Assembly: GCA_001661515.1 (NCBI GenBank)
Contig: LUVW01000032.1
Location: forward strand, 186,001-250,000
Reading direction: 5' to 3'
DNA: 64,000 bases
Origin: Capniomyces stellatus
Taxonomy: Eukaryota > Kickxellomycota > Harpellomycetes > Harpellales > Legeriomycetaceae
Shown here: piece by piece, positions 919-64,000 of the stretch
Numbering within the stretch: position 1 is the first letter of the stretch
Layout: each line of letters starts with the position of its first letter
Translations under genes and position numbers: made by a program
The notes under the pieces: model-generated
The model's database searches: none
The model's input: only the letters and a program-made list of their open reading frames with translations
What the model was told of the DNA's origin: nothing

Positions 919-1045
919 TATGGGCGAGAGTGTGAGCGTAGAATGAATTAAGTCCGTTATTTTATTATTTATCATTCGATTATCGCTTTTAGATAGTTAT
1001 TTAGCAAAGGTGTGCATATTTGATTTCTTAAAAGTTAAATTAAAG

Positions 1046-3349
1046 ATGCATCTGTTTTCTATCATCGCAATATCCGCAATTAGTACAGTCAGTGGTGGCT
1101 ACTCGCGTGGCTATATTAGTAACCGCCCGCACACAGGATACAATGGCAAGAAAGATGTACTATTTCCATTCAGGCAATGCGTTCAAGCATATGGGCCCGA
1201 ACCGTGGCTAAATCAAGGAAGCTATTACTACTGTGACATTTTTGGAAGAGTAGTTAATATTGGGAAAGTCAAGCCATCGCTGGTTTGCGACAAGGCTAAA
1301 GTCAGCAGACTGCTGTTTAGTATGTGCGTAGCAAAAAACAAATCTTATATCTGGAAACAAGGAGAAAAAACATGTAGGTGTTTACTTTCAGGTTGCTCCA
1401 GCTGCGAGCCAGATGTAACAAATACTACGTGCAAGGCAGGTGTGATTGATGCAAAACTAGAAGCTGTATGCATTACCGCCAACTCAGCAACACCATGGGT
1501 CAACGCTACAACTGGCCAAATATGCGAGTGCGGTGCTGATGGATGTGTCAATTGTGTCGATGCAGTGTGCCCATCTGGAGTTGTTAACCCCGTCAAGGAG
1601 GCTGAATGTATTGCTGCCAACTCAGCGGATCCATGGATTGATGAAACTGGCCAGGAATGCTCATGTGGAATTGATGGATGTGTGAAGTGTACGTTTACAG
1701 ACTGTCCATCTGGAGTTAAAAACACCGTTAGACAAGACTCCTGCAAGGCAAGCAACTCAGCCGATCCATGGGCTGACGCCACAACTGGTCAAATATGCTC
1801 ATGTGGAACCGATGGATGTGTCAATTGTGTCGATGCAGTGTGCCCATCTGGAGTTCTTAATCCCGCCAAGGAGGCAGAATGCGTTGCCGCCAACTCAGCA
1901 ACAGCATGGATCGACGCTACAACAGGTCAAATATGTGAGTGCGGTGCTGATGGATGTATTACATGTGTTGACGCAGTGTGTCCATCTGGAGTTGCTAATC
2001 CCGTCAAAGAAGCTGAGTGCGTTGCTGCCAACTCAGCAACACCATGGGCTGACACAACAACAGGTCAAATATGTGAGTGCGGTGCTGATGGATGCACTAC
2101 ATGTGTTGACGCAGTGTGTCCATCTGGAGTTGCTAACCCCGTTAAAGAAGCTGAGTGCTTTACCGCCAACTCAGCAACACCATGGGCTGACACAACAACA
2201 GGTCAAATATGTGAGTGCGGTGCTGATGGATGCACTACATGTGTTGACGCGGTGTGTCCATCTGGAGTTGCTAACCCCGTTAAAGAAGCTGAGTGCTTTA
2301 CCGCCAACTCAGCAACACCATGGGCTGACACAACAACAGGTCAAATATGTGAGTGCGGTGCTGATGGATGCACTACATGTGTTGACGCAGTGTGTCCATC
2401 TGGAGTTGCTAACCCCGTTAAAGAAGCTGAGTGCTTTACCGCCAACTCAGCAACACCATGGGCTGACACAACAACAGGTCAAATATGTGAGTGCGGTGCT
2501 GATGGATGCACTACATGTGTTGACGCAGTGTGTCCATCTGGAGTTGCTAATCCCGTCAAAGAAGCTGAGTGCGTTGCTGCCAACTCAGCAACACCATGGG
2601 CTGACACAACAACAGGTCAAATATGTGAGTGCGGTGCTGATGGATGCACTACATGTGTTGACGCAGTGTGTCCATCTGGAGTTGCTAACCCCGTTAAAGA
2701 AGCTGAGTGCTTTACCGCCAACTCAGCAACACCATGGGCTGACACAACAACAGGTCAAATATGTGAGTGCGGTGCTGATGGATGCACTACATGTGTTGAC
2801 GCAGTGTGTCCATCTGGAGTTGCTAACCCCGTTAAAGAAGCTGAGTGCTTTACCGCCAACTCAGCAACACCATGGGCTGACACAACAACAGGTCAAATAT
2901 GTGAGTGCGGTGCTGATGGATGCACTACATGTGTTGACGCAGTGTGTCCATCTGGAGTTGCTAACCCCGTTAAAGAAGCTGAGTGCTTTACCGCCAATTC
3001 AGCAACACCATGGGCTGACGCCACAACTGGCCAAGTATGCTCATGTGGAGCCGATGGATGCGTCAACTGTGTCAATTCAGTGTGTCCATCTACAGTTGTT
3101 AACCCCGTCAAAAAGGCTGAATGCATTGCTGCCAACTCTGCAGATATGTGGGTAGCCAACCATCTTGAATGTAATTGCACAAATGCCGGTTGTGTTCAAT
3201 GTTTACCCTGTGTAAGAAGTAATCTTGAAAATCCAGAAAAAAAACTCGCTTGTGTAATGAGGCATAACGGTGTATTCTGGGTTGAAGGGAAAGAGATGTG
3301 GGAGTGTGGAATGGACGGTTGCGAGTTCATGTATGGAATGATGCCATAA
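1046..3349 (+). CDS. secreted cysteine-rich 46-residue tandem-repeat protein
   Basis: A protein of 767 residues. The frame is open from a GTG at 1010, but the first ATG is at 1046 and begins a typical signal peptide (MHLFSIIAISAISTVSGG). After a degenerate N-terminal part come about 14 repeats of 46 residues (138 bp). The consensus has six cysteines spaced C-x4-C-x12-C-x17-C-x-C-x4-C, an invariant Trp, and NSATPW and CGADGC motifs. Eight central units (about 1965-3070) are nearly identical; outer units are diverged. Even cysteine number and a signal peptide suggest disulfide-bonded extracellular modules. No enzymatic motif, membrane anchor or GPI signal is visible; it ends in MYGMMP. The period is a multiple of three, so other frames are also open, but only this one carries a signal peptide and conserved Cys. 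I do not recognise the family; surface coat, adhesin or holdfast roles are speculation. Confidence 0.85.
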   Translation: MHLFSIIAISAISTVSGGYSRGYISNRPHTGYNGKKDVLFPFRQCVQAYGPEPWLNQGSYYYCDIFGRVVNIGKVKPSLVCDKAKVSRLLFSMCVAKNKSYIWKQGEKTCRCLLSGCSSCEPDVTNTTCKAGVIDAKLEAVCITANSATPWVNATTGQICECGADGCVNCVDAVCPSGVVNPVKEAECIAANSADPWIDETGQECSCGIDGCVKCTFTDCPSGVKNTVRQDSCKASNSADPWADATTGQICSCGTDGCVNCVDAVCPSGVLNPAKEAECVAANSATAWIDATTGQICECGADGCITCVDAVCPSGVANPVKEAECVAANSATPWADTTTGQICECGADGCTTCVDAVCPSGVANPVKEAECFTANSATPWADTTTGQICECGADGCTTCVDAVCPSGVANPVKEAECFTANSATPWADTTTGQICECGADGCTTCVDAVCPSGVANPVKEAECFTANSATPWADTTTGQICECGADGCTTCVDAVCPSGVANPVKEAECVAANSATPWADTTTGQICECGADGCTTCVDAVCPSGVANPVKEAECFTANSATPWADTTTGQICECGADGCTTCVDAVCPSGVANPVKEAECFTANSATPWADTTTGQICECGADGCTTCVDAVCPSGVANPVKEAECFTANSATPWADATTGQVCSCGADGCVNCVNSVCPSTVVNPVKKAECIAANSADMWVANHLECNCTNAGCVQCLPCVRSNLENPEKKLACVMRHNGVFWVEGKEMWECGMDGCEFMYGMMP
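1965..3072 (+). repeat. 138-bp minisatellite, eight near-identical units
   Basis: Eight consecutive 138-bp units inside the Cys-rich gene. At the residue after the third cysteine they read Val, Phe, Phe, Phe, Val, Phe, Phe, Phe. The two Val units also share silent differences (TAATCCCGTC against TAACCCCGTT), which shows that a four-unit, 552-bp block was duplicated. Confidence 0.9.
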
Positions 3350-6576: not shown

Positions 6577-9500
6577 ATGCCACAAGTCATTGGTAAGAAA
6601 CTTAATTAAAACCAAAATGTTATACTTTATAACGAAAGTCGTGGAAACTAGGGCCGAATTGAAACACGTTCGATTGCGTGCTTTAATGAATGGCGGTTGT
6701 TTTGGAAAATGAATTGTTCTGGTAGCAATTCAAACAAAAAAAAATAAGGATCGAAACCAACGAGTAATCCACGAGCAAATCCTCAAGTGTTAAGCTACTG
6801 GAACGCTTGGAATTACGAAGCATAAACCGAGTTGTTGTGTCAGCTTAAATTCGCCAACAGCAATAAGACACGGCATAGTTGGCATAGTTGGCAATAGCTG
6901 TAACAGTTTGTTTAATTGTTTAATGACACTTGGATATAAATATGTAATAGAAACCACCTTTGCACCAAACCCTTCAGCTATAAAAGGACAAAGTGTGCAA
7001 ATCTCTGCTGACCCAAAGGGGGAAAGATTGGTGTATGCCAACGGAAAAAACATTATTATTAGAAATATTGAGGTAAAACCGAGTCCAATACGTACAAGTA
7101 CCACTTTTAGTGCTAACTGGATGGGATATTGTATTGATAAGGGCTTTGTGTGGCTAAATAGAATCCTGAAATAGCCAGTATCTATCAAGGCCATTCGCAT
7201 AACACCACAGTTGCCAGATTCTCTCCATCAGGATACTACATTGCTTCAGGAGGTAAGATGCAGTCTTTTGAGAGAGCTAATACGGGGGTAGTTTTGACGT
7301 TGATAGGTATTGTTTGTGATTTTGTGCAAAGTCACAGCTAGTTGAAGCAAGCATGATTTATTGGCTGTAGATGTGCACGGAAACGTGCGAGTATGGGACT
7401 CAGTGAACGAAGAACACATTTTGAAAAATGAAACTAAGCCTCTTTCAGGGCCTGTTCGTGATATTGCATGGGACATGGAAAGCCAAAGAATCCTGGCTGT
7501 TGGCGAGGGAAAAGAAAAGTAGGTTCAGCTAAACTAAAATATTGCTATAAGACTTTATTGGCATTAACACACACATTTGAACGTATATTTCAACTTTATT
7601 GTTTTTTTTTACTGATGTTTTTCTTTTAAACTAGATTTGGACATATTTTCACCTATGATACTGCAAACTCGGTTGGGACAATCGATGGACATGGGAAGGT
7701 TATCAATGGTTGTTCTCTTAGACCCAAAAGGCCATTCAGAGCTGTTACTTGCTCTGATGACATGACCGTGGTCTTTTTCCATGGTGCGCCATTCAAGTTC
7801 TCCAAATCTATCAGAGATCACACTGGATTTGTAAACGACGTCAAGTATTCTCCTGACGGCTCCCACTTTGTCAGTGTTGGAAGCGATCGAAAGGTTAGGA
7901 AATGTTGGTTTACACCAATGCGTTTTTGGTATCTACTGTTATTATTTGCTAATTGGGTTTTTGGGCTTGAACGAAATCCGTCATAATAATATATTTGCTG
8001 AACTTTGCGTCATTTTCAATAGATATTCCTTTACGAAGGTGTTTCTGGCGACCTGGTTTCTCAAATTGGCTCTGCCGAATCTGGCCACAAAGGATCAATC
8101 TACAGCGTATCTTGGAGCCCAGACAGCAAAAAGATCATCACAGCTTCAGCCGATAGATCGGTTAAAATCTGGGACATTGAAAACAGATCGCTTTTACAGT
8201 AAATCTTTTCAAAATTTATATTTATGTACTTGCTATTGGTGCAGCTCTTCAAGTTTGATTGTCTCATACAGATGGCAATTAAAAAAAAGCATCATAATTA
8301 ACTATAATGCCGTTAATTAAACTCTGGACCTTTACTATTGCTCAAGAACCGTTGAAATAGGAGAAAGTGCCAGCGCAGACAATATGCAGGTTGGCTGCAT
8401 TTGGACAGAGAAAAACATACTGAGTCTATCTTTGATAGGTGATATAAATGTCATATCGCTAGACTACTCACTCGCCAGGGTCATCAAGGTACTTGTATTG
8501 CCATTTCGGAAAAATATTTAATTCTTTACTTTGTTTATTCACCAGTTTATTTAATCATCAATTTGCCTCTAATATGTAAAAAAATGGGTGTTTGTATTCT
8601 TGCATTTAATTCTGTCTTAAAACTAGAGCCATCAAAAGCCCATCACGGCTTCGGTACTATCCAAGGACAACAAACTATACACCGGAAGTTACGACGGTCG
8701 AATTTATATCCTATTACGCTTTGAGTCCAAAAAAAGAAAGAGAAAAAAAAAGGAATGAATGAAACATCCTCTTCCGACGCTGCTTTTATTTTCGAAATAA
8801 AAAAAGCCCGAAAACTCACACTCCCACTCCCCACCCCCAAAGTTTAGAATTTGAATATATTTGATTTGGTTTTTGGATTTATTAGTACACTTTTCTACAC
8901 TTTTTTTTTTTACACTTTCACTTTTCTTCTTTTGCTGCTGGTCGCTGTGAACAACCACACTTTCTTGTATAAGGAGGGCATGGGTATATCTCGTAAAGAG
9001 ATAAAAAGTCAAGCCTTAATTCCTTGTACTCTTGTATTCTTTTTTTTTTCTTTTCTTTTTCTACGCTGTTGGAATGTAGATAACCCCAAGGAGCCTGTAC
9101 AGATCATTCCAAGAGGTGGCCAGACCAGTAAGATCAATTGCATGGCCATCAATGCAAAAGGACAGCTTGTTATTGGGACTATGGATGACTCTATTTCAAC
9201 TCTGAGCCTTGAAGCTGGACAGAATAGGTATAAATCAGCTTCCAGTTTAATGCTATTTGTATTATCCTTTTTTCCACCATGCTACTTTTCATTTTTTTTC
9301 TTTTTTTTCTTCTTGACCACTTTTTTTTCACTCGTTTTTTTTTCTCTTTGCTGACTTTTCTGATTGATAATCTGTGTTGATATTTTACAATCATAGTCCC
9401 CTTGCAAAGGTATCGCTCAACGCAGCACCAAACTCGGTGGCCATTTCAAGCGACGGAACCACCATATTTGCATCGCTTTCCAACGAGAAGGTTGTTTGTG

Positions 9501-10030
9501 TTAAAGGAGAAAGTGTTGAAATTATTGCTTCTATTTCTAAGCCAGTGAGTCGAGTGGCCACATCTAAGGCCTCCTCTGAAGTTGCCGTGGGATTCATGAA
9601 CAATTCGGTCGAGGTTTACGACTACAATCCCAGCTCTAGAACCAGCTTGATATTTCCAGCATCCTTCAAAACCACCTCTAACCGCAGAGAAATAACCAGT
9701 ATCGCCTTTTCTCCAGACGGCAAATACTTTGCAAGCGGCGATGGTGCTGGAAAGATCTACTTGTTTGAAGCAAAAACTGGCGAGTTGGTAACAAACAAGT
9801 GGGTTTTCCACAACGCAACAATCAACAGCCTAGACTGGTCAAGCGACTCTAAAAGGCTAGTTTCGGGCTCCCTGGACTCCAACATTTATGTATGGAGTGT
9901 TGACAAGCCATCAGATCACGTCGAGTTCCCGCTTGCTCATATAGGTGGCGTAAGCTCAGTCAACTTTGTTGGTAACGACAAGCTTGTATCTTGCGGGTCA
10001 GACTCGGTTATCAAAGTTTGGAAAATCTAA
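6577..10030 (+). CDS. AIP1: actin-interacting protein 1 (WD-repeat, AIP1/WDR1)
   Basis: Ten exons: 6577-6592, 6951-7072, 7162-7252, 7371-7518, 7635-7893, 8023-8198, 8347-8488, 8627-8705, 9065-9227, 9397-10030. They sum to 1830 nt, exactly 609 codons plus stop, the usual AIP1 length. The product follows the family throughout: TTFAPNPS near the N-terminus, DPKGERLVYANGK, PSGYYIASGDVHGNVRVWD, GEGKEKFGHIFTYD, GAPFKFSKSIRDHTGFVNDV, SPDSKKIITASADRSVKIWD, and a final SCGSDSVIKVWKI. AIP1 is a 14-bladed double propeller that works with cofilin to disassemble actin filaments and cap barbed ends. Nine introns have usual ends except the eighth (8706-9064), which starts ATATCC and ends AC; spliced so, it restores DGRICCWNV, the conserved end of a WD blade. 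A GT-AG alternative (8697-9079) would also keep frame but delete that strand. Confidence 0.93.
8706..9064 (+). other. probable U12-type AT-AC intron in AIP1
   Basis: The intron begins ATATCCTATT, eight of nine matches to the minor-spliceosome donor ATATCCTTT, and ends in CTAC. A CCTTAAT element near 9013-9019 matches the core of the U12 branch consensus, though it lies about 45 nt from the 3' end, farther than usual. Removing this interval joins T to GC and gives GRICCW, as expected for the blade. Confidence 0.65.
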
Positions 10031-62500: not shown

Positions 62501-62591
62501 ACTATTAATTCATTATACATACTGCATACCCGATTTAAGCATAATATCACGGCTAGCTTTATAACATTTAATCAAAAAAAACATCTCAACA
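59586..62591. other. 3-kb AT-rich intergenic region
   Basis: Upstream DNA of two divergent genes. Features seen are T-runs, TCTTCTAATTT repeats near 60570-60625, and a TATA-like TATATATATATAAGG near 61190. A frame at 60863-61165 starts at TTG and has no similarity. No gene called. Confidence 0.5.
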
Positions 62592-64000
62592 ATGATCGGC
62601 AAAGCTAACTCGTCAAAAAAGTCACTTTCAAGGGTGTTACTGATTTCGTTTATCCTGGCCTCAACCCTAAAACTAACTACAGTTAGCGCGTTTCCGGAGA
62701 TGCAAAACAACGCAATCAGTATAAGCAGTGGAAGCAGTAATCATGGCATGATTATAAAACGCCAGGAAGAAGCTGCAACAGAAGAAGACAAGGGAGAAAA
62801 GGGAGAAAAGGGAGATAAAGGTGAAAAGGGAGATAAGGGTGACGAAGGCGATAAGGGTGATGCAGAAGAAAAAGATGACGAAGGTAAAGATAATGAGAAG
62901 AGTATGAATGGAGAAAAGGGTGAGAAAGGCGAAAAAGGCGAAAAAGGCGAAAAGGGTGAGAAGGGTGAGAAGGGTGAGAAGGGTGAGAAGGGTGAGAAGG
63001 GCGAAAAGGGTGAGAATGAAGATGGTGACGAAGCAGAAAATGATGTCAAAGATTTGGAAGATGACAAAAAAGACAATAAAAATAAATCAAAAAGCAACAA
63101 GAGTGAGGAAGATGGTGACATCGAAGAAGTAGACGAGGAGGTTGAAGATGATCAAAGTGAAATGGATGAAGGAGGAGATTATGAATCCAAGGATACTGAG
63201 TCGGATAAAAAAGACATAAAGATGAAAGGCGATTCTTGTAAAGAAGTCGAGTATGCCTGTACCAAGAACAAGAGCAAGTTCTTGCAATGTGAGAACGGCA
63301 AGTTCTTGGAAATGAGTTGCAATCCAGAAACTGTCTGTAAAGAAAATGGAGAAAAATCCATTGTCTGTGGATTTTCAGACAGCAAAAACCTAAACGATAC
63401 ACAAGAGTACACAAACAATGAATCCAAGAATAAGACTGATAAAGCTAGCGATGATAAGGAGAAGGAGGATGAGGAGGATGAGGAGGATGAGGAGGATGAG
63501 GATGATGAGGATGATGAGGAGGATGAGGATGATGAGGATAAGGAGGATGATGATGAGGATAAGGAGGATAAGGAGGATGATGATGAGGATAAGGAGGATG
63601 ATGATGAGGATGGGGAGGATGAGGAGGATGAGGAGGATGAGGATGAGGAGGATGAGGATAAAGAGGATGAGGATAAAGAGGATGAGGATAAAGAGGATAA
63701 GGATAAAGAGGATGATGTTGAAGAGGATGATGTACTTCTCTCATGATCACTACTTCTCTCATGATCACTACTTCTCTCATGATCACTACTTCTCTCATGA
63801 TCACTACTTCTCTCATGATCACTACTTCTCTCATGATCACTACTTCTCTCAACTAGTGATGAAGAGAGTACTAGTGATGAAGAGAGTACTAGTGATGAAG
63901 AGAGTACTAGTGATGAAGAGAGTGATAAAATGAGTACCACTGAAGACAATAATAGCACTAGTGAGAATAGTAGCGAGCCAACATCAAGTACAGAAAATAG
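62592..64000 (+). CDS. secreted Gly-Glu-Lys repeat protein with CBM19-like domain (partial or interrupted)
   Basis: The frame from ATG 62592 reaches a stop at 63746 (384 residues). A signal peptide (LSRVLLISFILASTLKLTTVSA) is followed by a Lys-Arg site (IIKR|QEE). Two runs of collagen-like Gly-x-y triplets follow, mostly GEK and GDK, without Pro (about eleven GEK in the second). At about residues 216-260 a six-Cys module, YACTKNKSKFLQCENGKF then MSC-NPETVC, with VCG at the end, has the spacing of fungal CBM19 chitin-binding modules. A Glu/Asp-rich tract follows. After the stop the same frame is open again from 63852 to the window edge, with Ser-Thr-Ser-Asp-Glu-Glu repeats. The gene therefore probably continues, and the block between is an inverted repeat or an intron. 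Role: chitin or wall surface attachment is inferred. Confidence 0.72.
63460..63735 (+). repeat. GAGGAT-type acidic microsatellite
   Basis: GAGGAT, GATGAG and AAGGAG units encode the Glu/Asp-rich tract of the secreted gene. Such tracts change length easily. Confidence 0.85.
63734..63851. repeat. 18-bp minisatellite, inverted relative to its neighbour
   Basis: Six full copies and a partial of ACTTCTCTCATGATCACT. Its reverse complement, AGTGATCATGAGAGAAGT, is close to the unit AGTGATGAAGAGAGTACT that follows on the plus strand (63855 on). In the orientation shown each full unit puts a TGA in the gene's frame. Confidence 0.9.
63855..63921 (+). repeat. 18-bp Ser-Asp-Glu-Glu-Ser-Thr minisatellite
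   Basis: Four tandem copies of AGTGATGAAGAGAGTACT, the last one incomplete, in the same frame as the upstream secreted ORF. Confidence 0.9.

Follow-up and report, generated by a model that had tools for sequence, protein, structure and literature searches.

The window analysed here, a stretch of 64,000 nucleotides, carries on its forward strand a gene for actin-interacting protein 1 (AIP1, or WDR1), a WD-repeat protein that regulates actin. The gene model, made by eye and translated, extends from start to stop codon over positions 6577..10030 in ten exons and yields 609 residues, which align over nearly their whole length with the solved AIP1/WDR1 proteins 9qfq (E 2.9e-126), 1nr0 (E 7.5e-120) and 1pgu (E 6.1e-84), from human, worm and yeast. 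Eight of the nine introns have GT-AG ends; the exception is the eighth in order (8706..9064, 359 nt), which follows exon 8 (8627..8705, ...TACGACGGTCGAATTT at its 3' end, phase 1), starts with AT and ends in AC (...TTTTTCTAC at 9064), before exon 9 (9065..9227) begins with GCTGTTGGAATGTAGAT, read as (C)CWNVD. Across the joined exons the 609-residue protein reads ...GSYDGRICCWNVDNPKEP....

If this intron were retained, AIP1 would terminate at a TGA (8756-8758), 17 residues past DGRI. An AATAAA lies within the intron as well (8796-8801), so that an unspliced transcript might conceivably be polyadenylated too early. Elsewhere in the window, an 800-residue frame at 947-3349 consists of many near-identical cysteine-rich repeats (CPSGVANPVKEAEC...CECGADGCTTCVDAV) and looks by eye like a secreted or surface repeat protein, and a second frame at 62565-63746 encodes a low-complexity protein in which a start that by eye resembles a signal is combined with acidic repeats and a long run of KGEKGEKGE.

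The splice junction and its signals

The junction was chosen by protein homology. All in-frame, stop-free junctions with a first intron base at 8640-8769 and a last one at 8960-9129, whatever their end dinucleotides (n = 6566), were scored against a profile of those 108 among 120 homologues in which the site is intact; being made of intact homologues, this profile favours intact junctions by design. The AT-AC junction 8706-9064 ranked first of all (824.9 bits), and the remaining 11 of the top 12 share its exon spacing and have ends of no recognised type. In the subset of 89 with GT-AG, GC-AG, AT-AC, AT-AG or GT-AC ends the runner-up, a GC-AG junction, reached 814.0 bits and the best GT-AG junction 803.5 bits, 21 bits below AT-AC. 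The sequence-only reading, which had singled out the AT-AC splice for joining the exons as DGRICCWNV at a length of 609 residues, is borne out by this ranking, while the GT-AG pair that it had named as an example of an alternative (8697-9079) fell to rank 3234 with 798.9 bits. At the resulting spacing D-x5-W is found in 104 of the 120 homologues and E-x5-W in four more, the same D/E-x5-W spacing recurs in three solved AIP1 structures, and the column holds a tryptophan in 110 of 120. Judged from these alignments, the AT-AC junction appears to be fixed by the protein family, and the ends so ranked would be one of the two pairs (AT-AC or GT-AG) of U12-type introns.

The donor (8706..8715, ATATCCTATT) is of the minor, U12 type: ATATCCTAT matches RTATCCTTT at eight of nine bases, with A instead of T at position 8. 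The earlier count of donor matches and the AC at 9064 hold in both coordinates and letters. Sequences within one mismatch of ATATCCTTT occur at 30 of 127,982 window positions (both strands) and the probability of AC is 0.053, from which the chance of a donor match together with AC comes to about 1.5e-4 over 12 same-length registers, a register number chosen after the junction ranking.

The 3' half is of a different kind. According to the accessible part of PMC3584512, minor introns are defined by donor and branch site, have no distinct pyrimidine tract and place the branch optimally 11-13 nt from the 3' end. In intron 8706-9064, no TTCCTTRAY was found at about 11-13 nt from the 3' end; the best agreement with TTCCTTAAC in the last 110 nt is six of nine, reached by AGCCTTAAT at 45 nt (9012..9020) and by TTCCTTGTA at 37 nt, and twice more at 10 and 4 nt from the AC, there without a branch A. 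The first of these, the best branch-like site having an A, contains the CCTTAAT core to which the sequence-only reading had drawn attention at about this distance; its second A lies at 9019, 45 nt from the end, and the only YTNAY of the last 80 nt also stands 45 nt away. No A occurs within the 26 nt preceding the AC, which form an A-free pyrimidine tract (9037..9062) of a kind not typical of minor introns. Pyrimidines make up 93% of the 30 nt that precede TAC, whereas their share is 43-77% in the eight AIP1 introns with GT-AG ends. Since the branch-site feature was looked for and is missing at the expected place, we file the intron as a variant and not as a textbook minor intron. Taken together, 8706-9064 would be a genuine AT-AC intron whose donor is of the minor type, and the sequence makes removal by the minor spliceosome the most likely route.

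The same site in related fungi

The best 120 of 1079 matching proteins, some of them without a name, served as the sample of AIP1 homologues, and relatives were compared as annotated proteins rather than as DNA. In 12 of the 120 the site is either absent or occupied by additional residues. These comprise all three named Harpellales of the sample (Furculomyces boomerangus P0001, Smittium megazygosporum P0022 and Smittium mucronatum P0103), eight of its nine named Glomeromycota (Ambispora P0030, Geosiphon P0050, Dentiscutata P0071, Paraglomus P0094, Racocetra P0095, Acaulospora P0101, Glomus cerebriforme P0105 and Entrophospora P0110; the exception, Rhizophagus P0055, is intact) and one chytrid, Batrachochytrium salamandrivorans P0119. 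Nine of the 12 failures are local, namely insertions of 17 and 27 residues (P0022 and P0050) and seven gaps of 2-16 residues, and the other three extend further and carry less weight: residues 327-366 are absent from P0101 and 333-354 from P0119, and P0103 lacks this site together with much of 268-332. Within four residues of the AT-AC junction ten homologues are gapped, compared with at most two at six of the eight other AIP1 junctions (largest counts 11 at the N-terminal junction, then 2, 2, 1, 2, 1, 1, and 118 at a variable loop); these gap counts have to be read with the caveat that a loop of variable length starts at residues 352-353, near the AT-AC site.

Two of the failing models show what may lie behind them. 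Both P0022 and P0050 (Geosiphon pyriformis) read GSYDGRIYIL and then continue with foreign residues. The window itself gives RIYIL when the AT-AC intron is retained, and T|ATATCCTN in the same phase would be translated in this way, as would other Y, I and L codons. Their translations thus allow for an identical donor sequence in Geosiphon and Smittium megazygosporum, placed in the same phase. In Geosiphon the foreign stretch comprises 28 residues where one is expected, which fits an intron of 81 nt; its residues SLI allow, as far as the protein can tell, TCCTTAAT 15 nt before a possible AC, and after that AC follows YAW, like IYAW of Rhizophagus. On the annotated proteins, then, the position appears to be conserved across distant lineages, and from the annotation failures and the RIYIL read-through the intron is probably old and shared. 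The simplest reading would be a single old AT-AC minor intron that gene finders restricted to GT-AG cannot manage.

The 12 AIP1 models concerned (P0001, P0022, P0030, P0050, P0071 and P0094, as well as P0095, P0101, P0103, P0105, P0110 and P0119) are probably mis-annotated at the AT-AC site, perhaps because gene finders disallow AT-AC ends.

The affiliation of the organism was approached through two protein searches that are independent of the intron. Among the matches listed, the closest AIP1 is that of Furculomyces boomerangus (54%), followed by Kickxellales, and the closest desaturase among the best 120 listed is again from Furculomyces (54%), followed by Basidiobolus and Smittium; no near-identical protein was among the listed matches of either query. 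Furculomyces, the nearest named relative, is classed in the Kickxellomycotina, Harpellales. We therefore describe the species as Kickxellomycotina-like; it stands outside the Dikarya, in agreement with the earlier expectation drawn from the intron.

Minor-spliceosome components and the frequency of such introns

The window's own genome (24.5 Mb in 59 contigs) was searched with Rfam models alongside 14 control genomes. A U6atac candidate of full model length was found at G000:C18:290698-290794 with 37.4 bits (Rfam cut-off 33, E 1.2e-6). Of the control genomes, 11 of 14 have a U6atac match at E<=10 and none has one above the cut-off. The candidate retains AGGAGAG, GGUU.GCA.UCC and GACAAGGAUGGA. 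A second, partial U6atac-like copy (L002, G000:C1:1642718-1642783) scores 24.2 bits, below the cut-off; it has UAGGAGAGAAGGUCAGCAC, lacks the GGAUGGA part and is possibly a pseudogene or a divergent copy. With 39-48 candidates scored per search, neither U11 nor U4atac gave a genome match at E<=10, and U12 gave none at E 0.001; its lone candidate (18.4 bits, E 2.45) was rejected. The U2 control was found easily (E 8.8e-26), which shows the search to be effective on this genome. An 18-base U12 core, used as a genome query with up to three mismatches, matched 78 places against 86 in the control, and Rfam scans of 11 of these 78 places together with L039 and L002 returned no U12. Within the window no Rfam family reached its gathering score, and a hit of STnc410 on L001, below its own cut-off, was taken as chance.

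Protein components were sought as well. PF18036 had no candidates in this genome or in the controls. One animal U11/U12-65K query gave two weak matches, at E 0.07 and 0.09. Of these, the one at C11:265081-265293 was rejected since, read by eye, it looks like another RRM protein, presumably of the PUF60 type; the other lies at C57:740768. The sequence-only reading had called for the minor snRNAs, and of these U6atac came out above the cut-off and U11, U12 and U4atac were not found; with this candidate in the genome, the absence of all minor-spliceosome components, which that reading had named as evidence against itself, is not what we observe.

At the 5' splice site of minor introns U11 is replaced by U6atac, as stated in the accessible text of PMC3584512. 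The pairing stretch of the candidate departs from the usual one: 5' of GAGAG it has GGAGUAGGA versus aUGAAAGGA in the Rfam consensus, and the alignment shows five deleted positions just before the stretch. The intron has UCCUAUU as compared with UCCUUU in the consensus donor, and between this UCCUAUU and the genome's own U6atac, whose UAGGA fits the UCCUA, 7 bp are possible, at -7.9 kcal/mol, whereas the same donor reaches -4.5 kcal/mol with a human-type stretch; for the consensus donor the values are -5.6 kcal/mol with the genome's own U6atac and -8.1 kcal/mol with the human-type stretch. The partial copy L002 contains UAGGA too. Co-adaptation of U6atac (UAGGA) and donor (UCCUA) is suggested by these sequences, and no more than suggested since it involves one intron and one changed position.

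Two patterns of donor plus branch site were counted genome-wide, and neither is in excess: TATCCTT with CCTTRAC occurs 29 times against 36 in the control, and TATCCTAY with CCTTRAY 18 times against 18. With both patterns the branch site has to lie within about 80 nt of the donor, and introns of the 8706-9064 type would be missed; the lack of excess makes it unlikely that standard short minor introns are numerous here. RTATCCTTT alone is found 740 times, twice as often as the backward control (364). We rejected this excess as evidence of introns, as a CCTTRAY match lies within 500 nt in 4 (L010, L014, L021, L028) of the first 30 of the 740 places, about the estimated chance.

Proposed origin and removal of the intron

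We consider it very probable, on the sequence evidence assembled here, that 8706-9064 represents an AT-AC intron which dates back to an early ancestor among the fungi and which a minor (U12-type) spliceosome removes with the help of the genome's own U6atac. A minor-spliceosome AT-AC intron had been proposed from the start, and the homology-ranked junction, the read-through proteins of two relatives that are compatible with the donor, and the U6atac candidate lend it support. A U11/U12-like particle would recognise the intron first and hand it over to U6atac, the branch would form at A9019 and act over a long range together with the pyrimidine tract, the first AC behind this tract would be selected, and splicing would occur at exactly 8706 and 9064.

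The 3' half could also be taken to mean that the AT-AC ends are right but that the intron, an old one of the minor kind, has acquired a major-type branch region and pyrimidine tract and is today spliced out by the major spliceosome. The pyrimidine-rich end, unmatched in the eight GT-AG introns, the sole YTNAY at 45 nt and the failure to find U12 and U11 in the genome search would all fit. We nevertheless regard such a takeover as unlikely, given that ATATCC looks unlike the GT donors of the eight remaining introns, that a U6atac gene whose pairing stretch matches has been kept in the genome, and that Smittium and Geosiphon may have retained this donor. Use of another junction, be it AT-AG 8706-9079, GC-AG 8718-9079 or a GT-AG pair, would likewise give in-frame products (811.5, 814.0 and at best 803.5 bits, respectively), and AT-AG-like end combinations are disfavoured yet possible according to the accessible text of PMC3584512; these products stand 11-21 bits below AT-AC, however, and those printed lose the tryptophan that 110 of 120 homologues have at this column, which leaves this explanation very unlikely. 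It is hardly credible that an AT-AC intron is mimicked by a decayed gene or by a fault in sequencing or assembly: the window is assembly sequence, but the ten AIP1 exons give an open frame of 609 residues, and in two other genera the translation would fit this donor at the corresponding codon.

Beyond removal by the minor spliceosome as such, one may speculate that in a Kickxellomycotina-like lineage this machinery was reduced and rebuilt: U6atac and donor would have changed together, the 3' end would be found through the pyrimidine tract and a branch site far upstream in place of a nearby TTCCTTAAC, and U12 would have diverged beyond recognition or been replaced by parts of U2, leaving a hybrid route for a handful of introns. 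We hold this elaboration to be rather doubtful.

If the 3' half does function without a nearby branch site, it would represent a natural half-conversion between two spliceosomes. An AT-AC intron apparently common to Harpellales-like fungi and Glomeromycota, together with a U6atac gene, would be a marker of minor-spliceosome shrinkage, and the data suggest that AIP1 models at this site are wrong in several public genomes of Glomeromycota and Harpellales.

The background for such a comparison comes mainly from a survey of fungal minor introns. The accessible parts of this survey and of a further paper report 205 minor introns in Rhizophagus and 249 in Basidiobolus and mention others in Rhizopus, Phycomyces, Spizellomyces and Neocallimastigomycetes (PMC10639083, PMC2846911). 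As far as its accessible text goes, the survey has Ascomycota and Basidiomycota without convincing minor introns and concludes that the ancestor of Zoopagomycota underwent a pronounced loss of them (PMC10639083). Among the papers listed by a literature search mostly confined to work outside subscription journals, none dealt with minor introns of Kickxellomycotina or Harpellales.

With the U12-type AT-AC introns described for Rhizophagus irregularis and Basidiobolus meristosporus, as presented in the accessible portion of the survey, the AIP1 intron shares the AT-AC ends, the ATATCCT donor and phase 1, as well as a host outside the Dikarya with a U6atac candidate (PMC10639083). Unlike them, it has a far branch-like site with six of nine matches, a long pyrimidine tract and an A at donor position 8, and its genome, with U11, U12 and U4atac undetected, gives no sign of many such introns. 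The AIP1 models of Geosiphon pyriformis (P0050) and of other Glomeromycota and Harpellales, with their read-through or gap at the same codon, form the nearest parallel, although the Geosiphon intron, judged from its protein, would be about 81 nt long and could have its branch 15 nt from the AC, compared with 45 nt here. U2-type AT-AC introns have ATAAG-like donors. The AIP1 intron resembles them in its AT-AC ends, its pyrimidine tract and its distant branch region, and differs in its donor, which is ATATCC and not ATAAG. The AIP1 intron would be a new case of a minor intron with a variant 3' half, and it offers a plausible view of a minor spliceosome in the course of shrinking.
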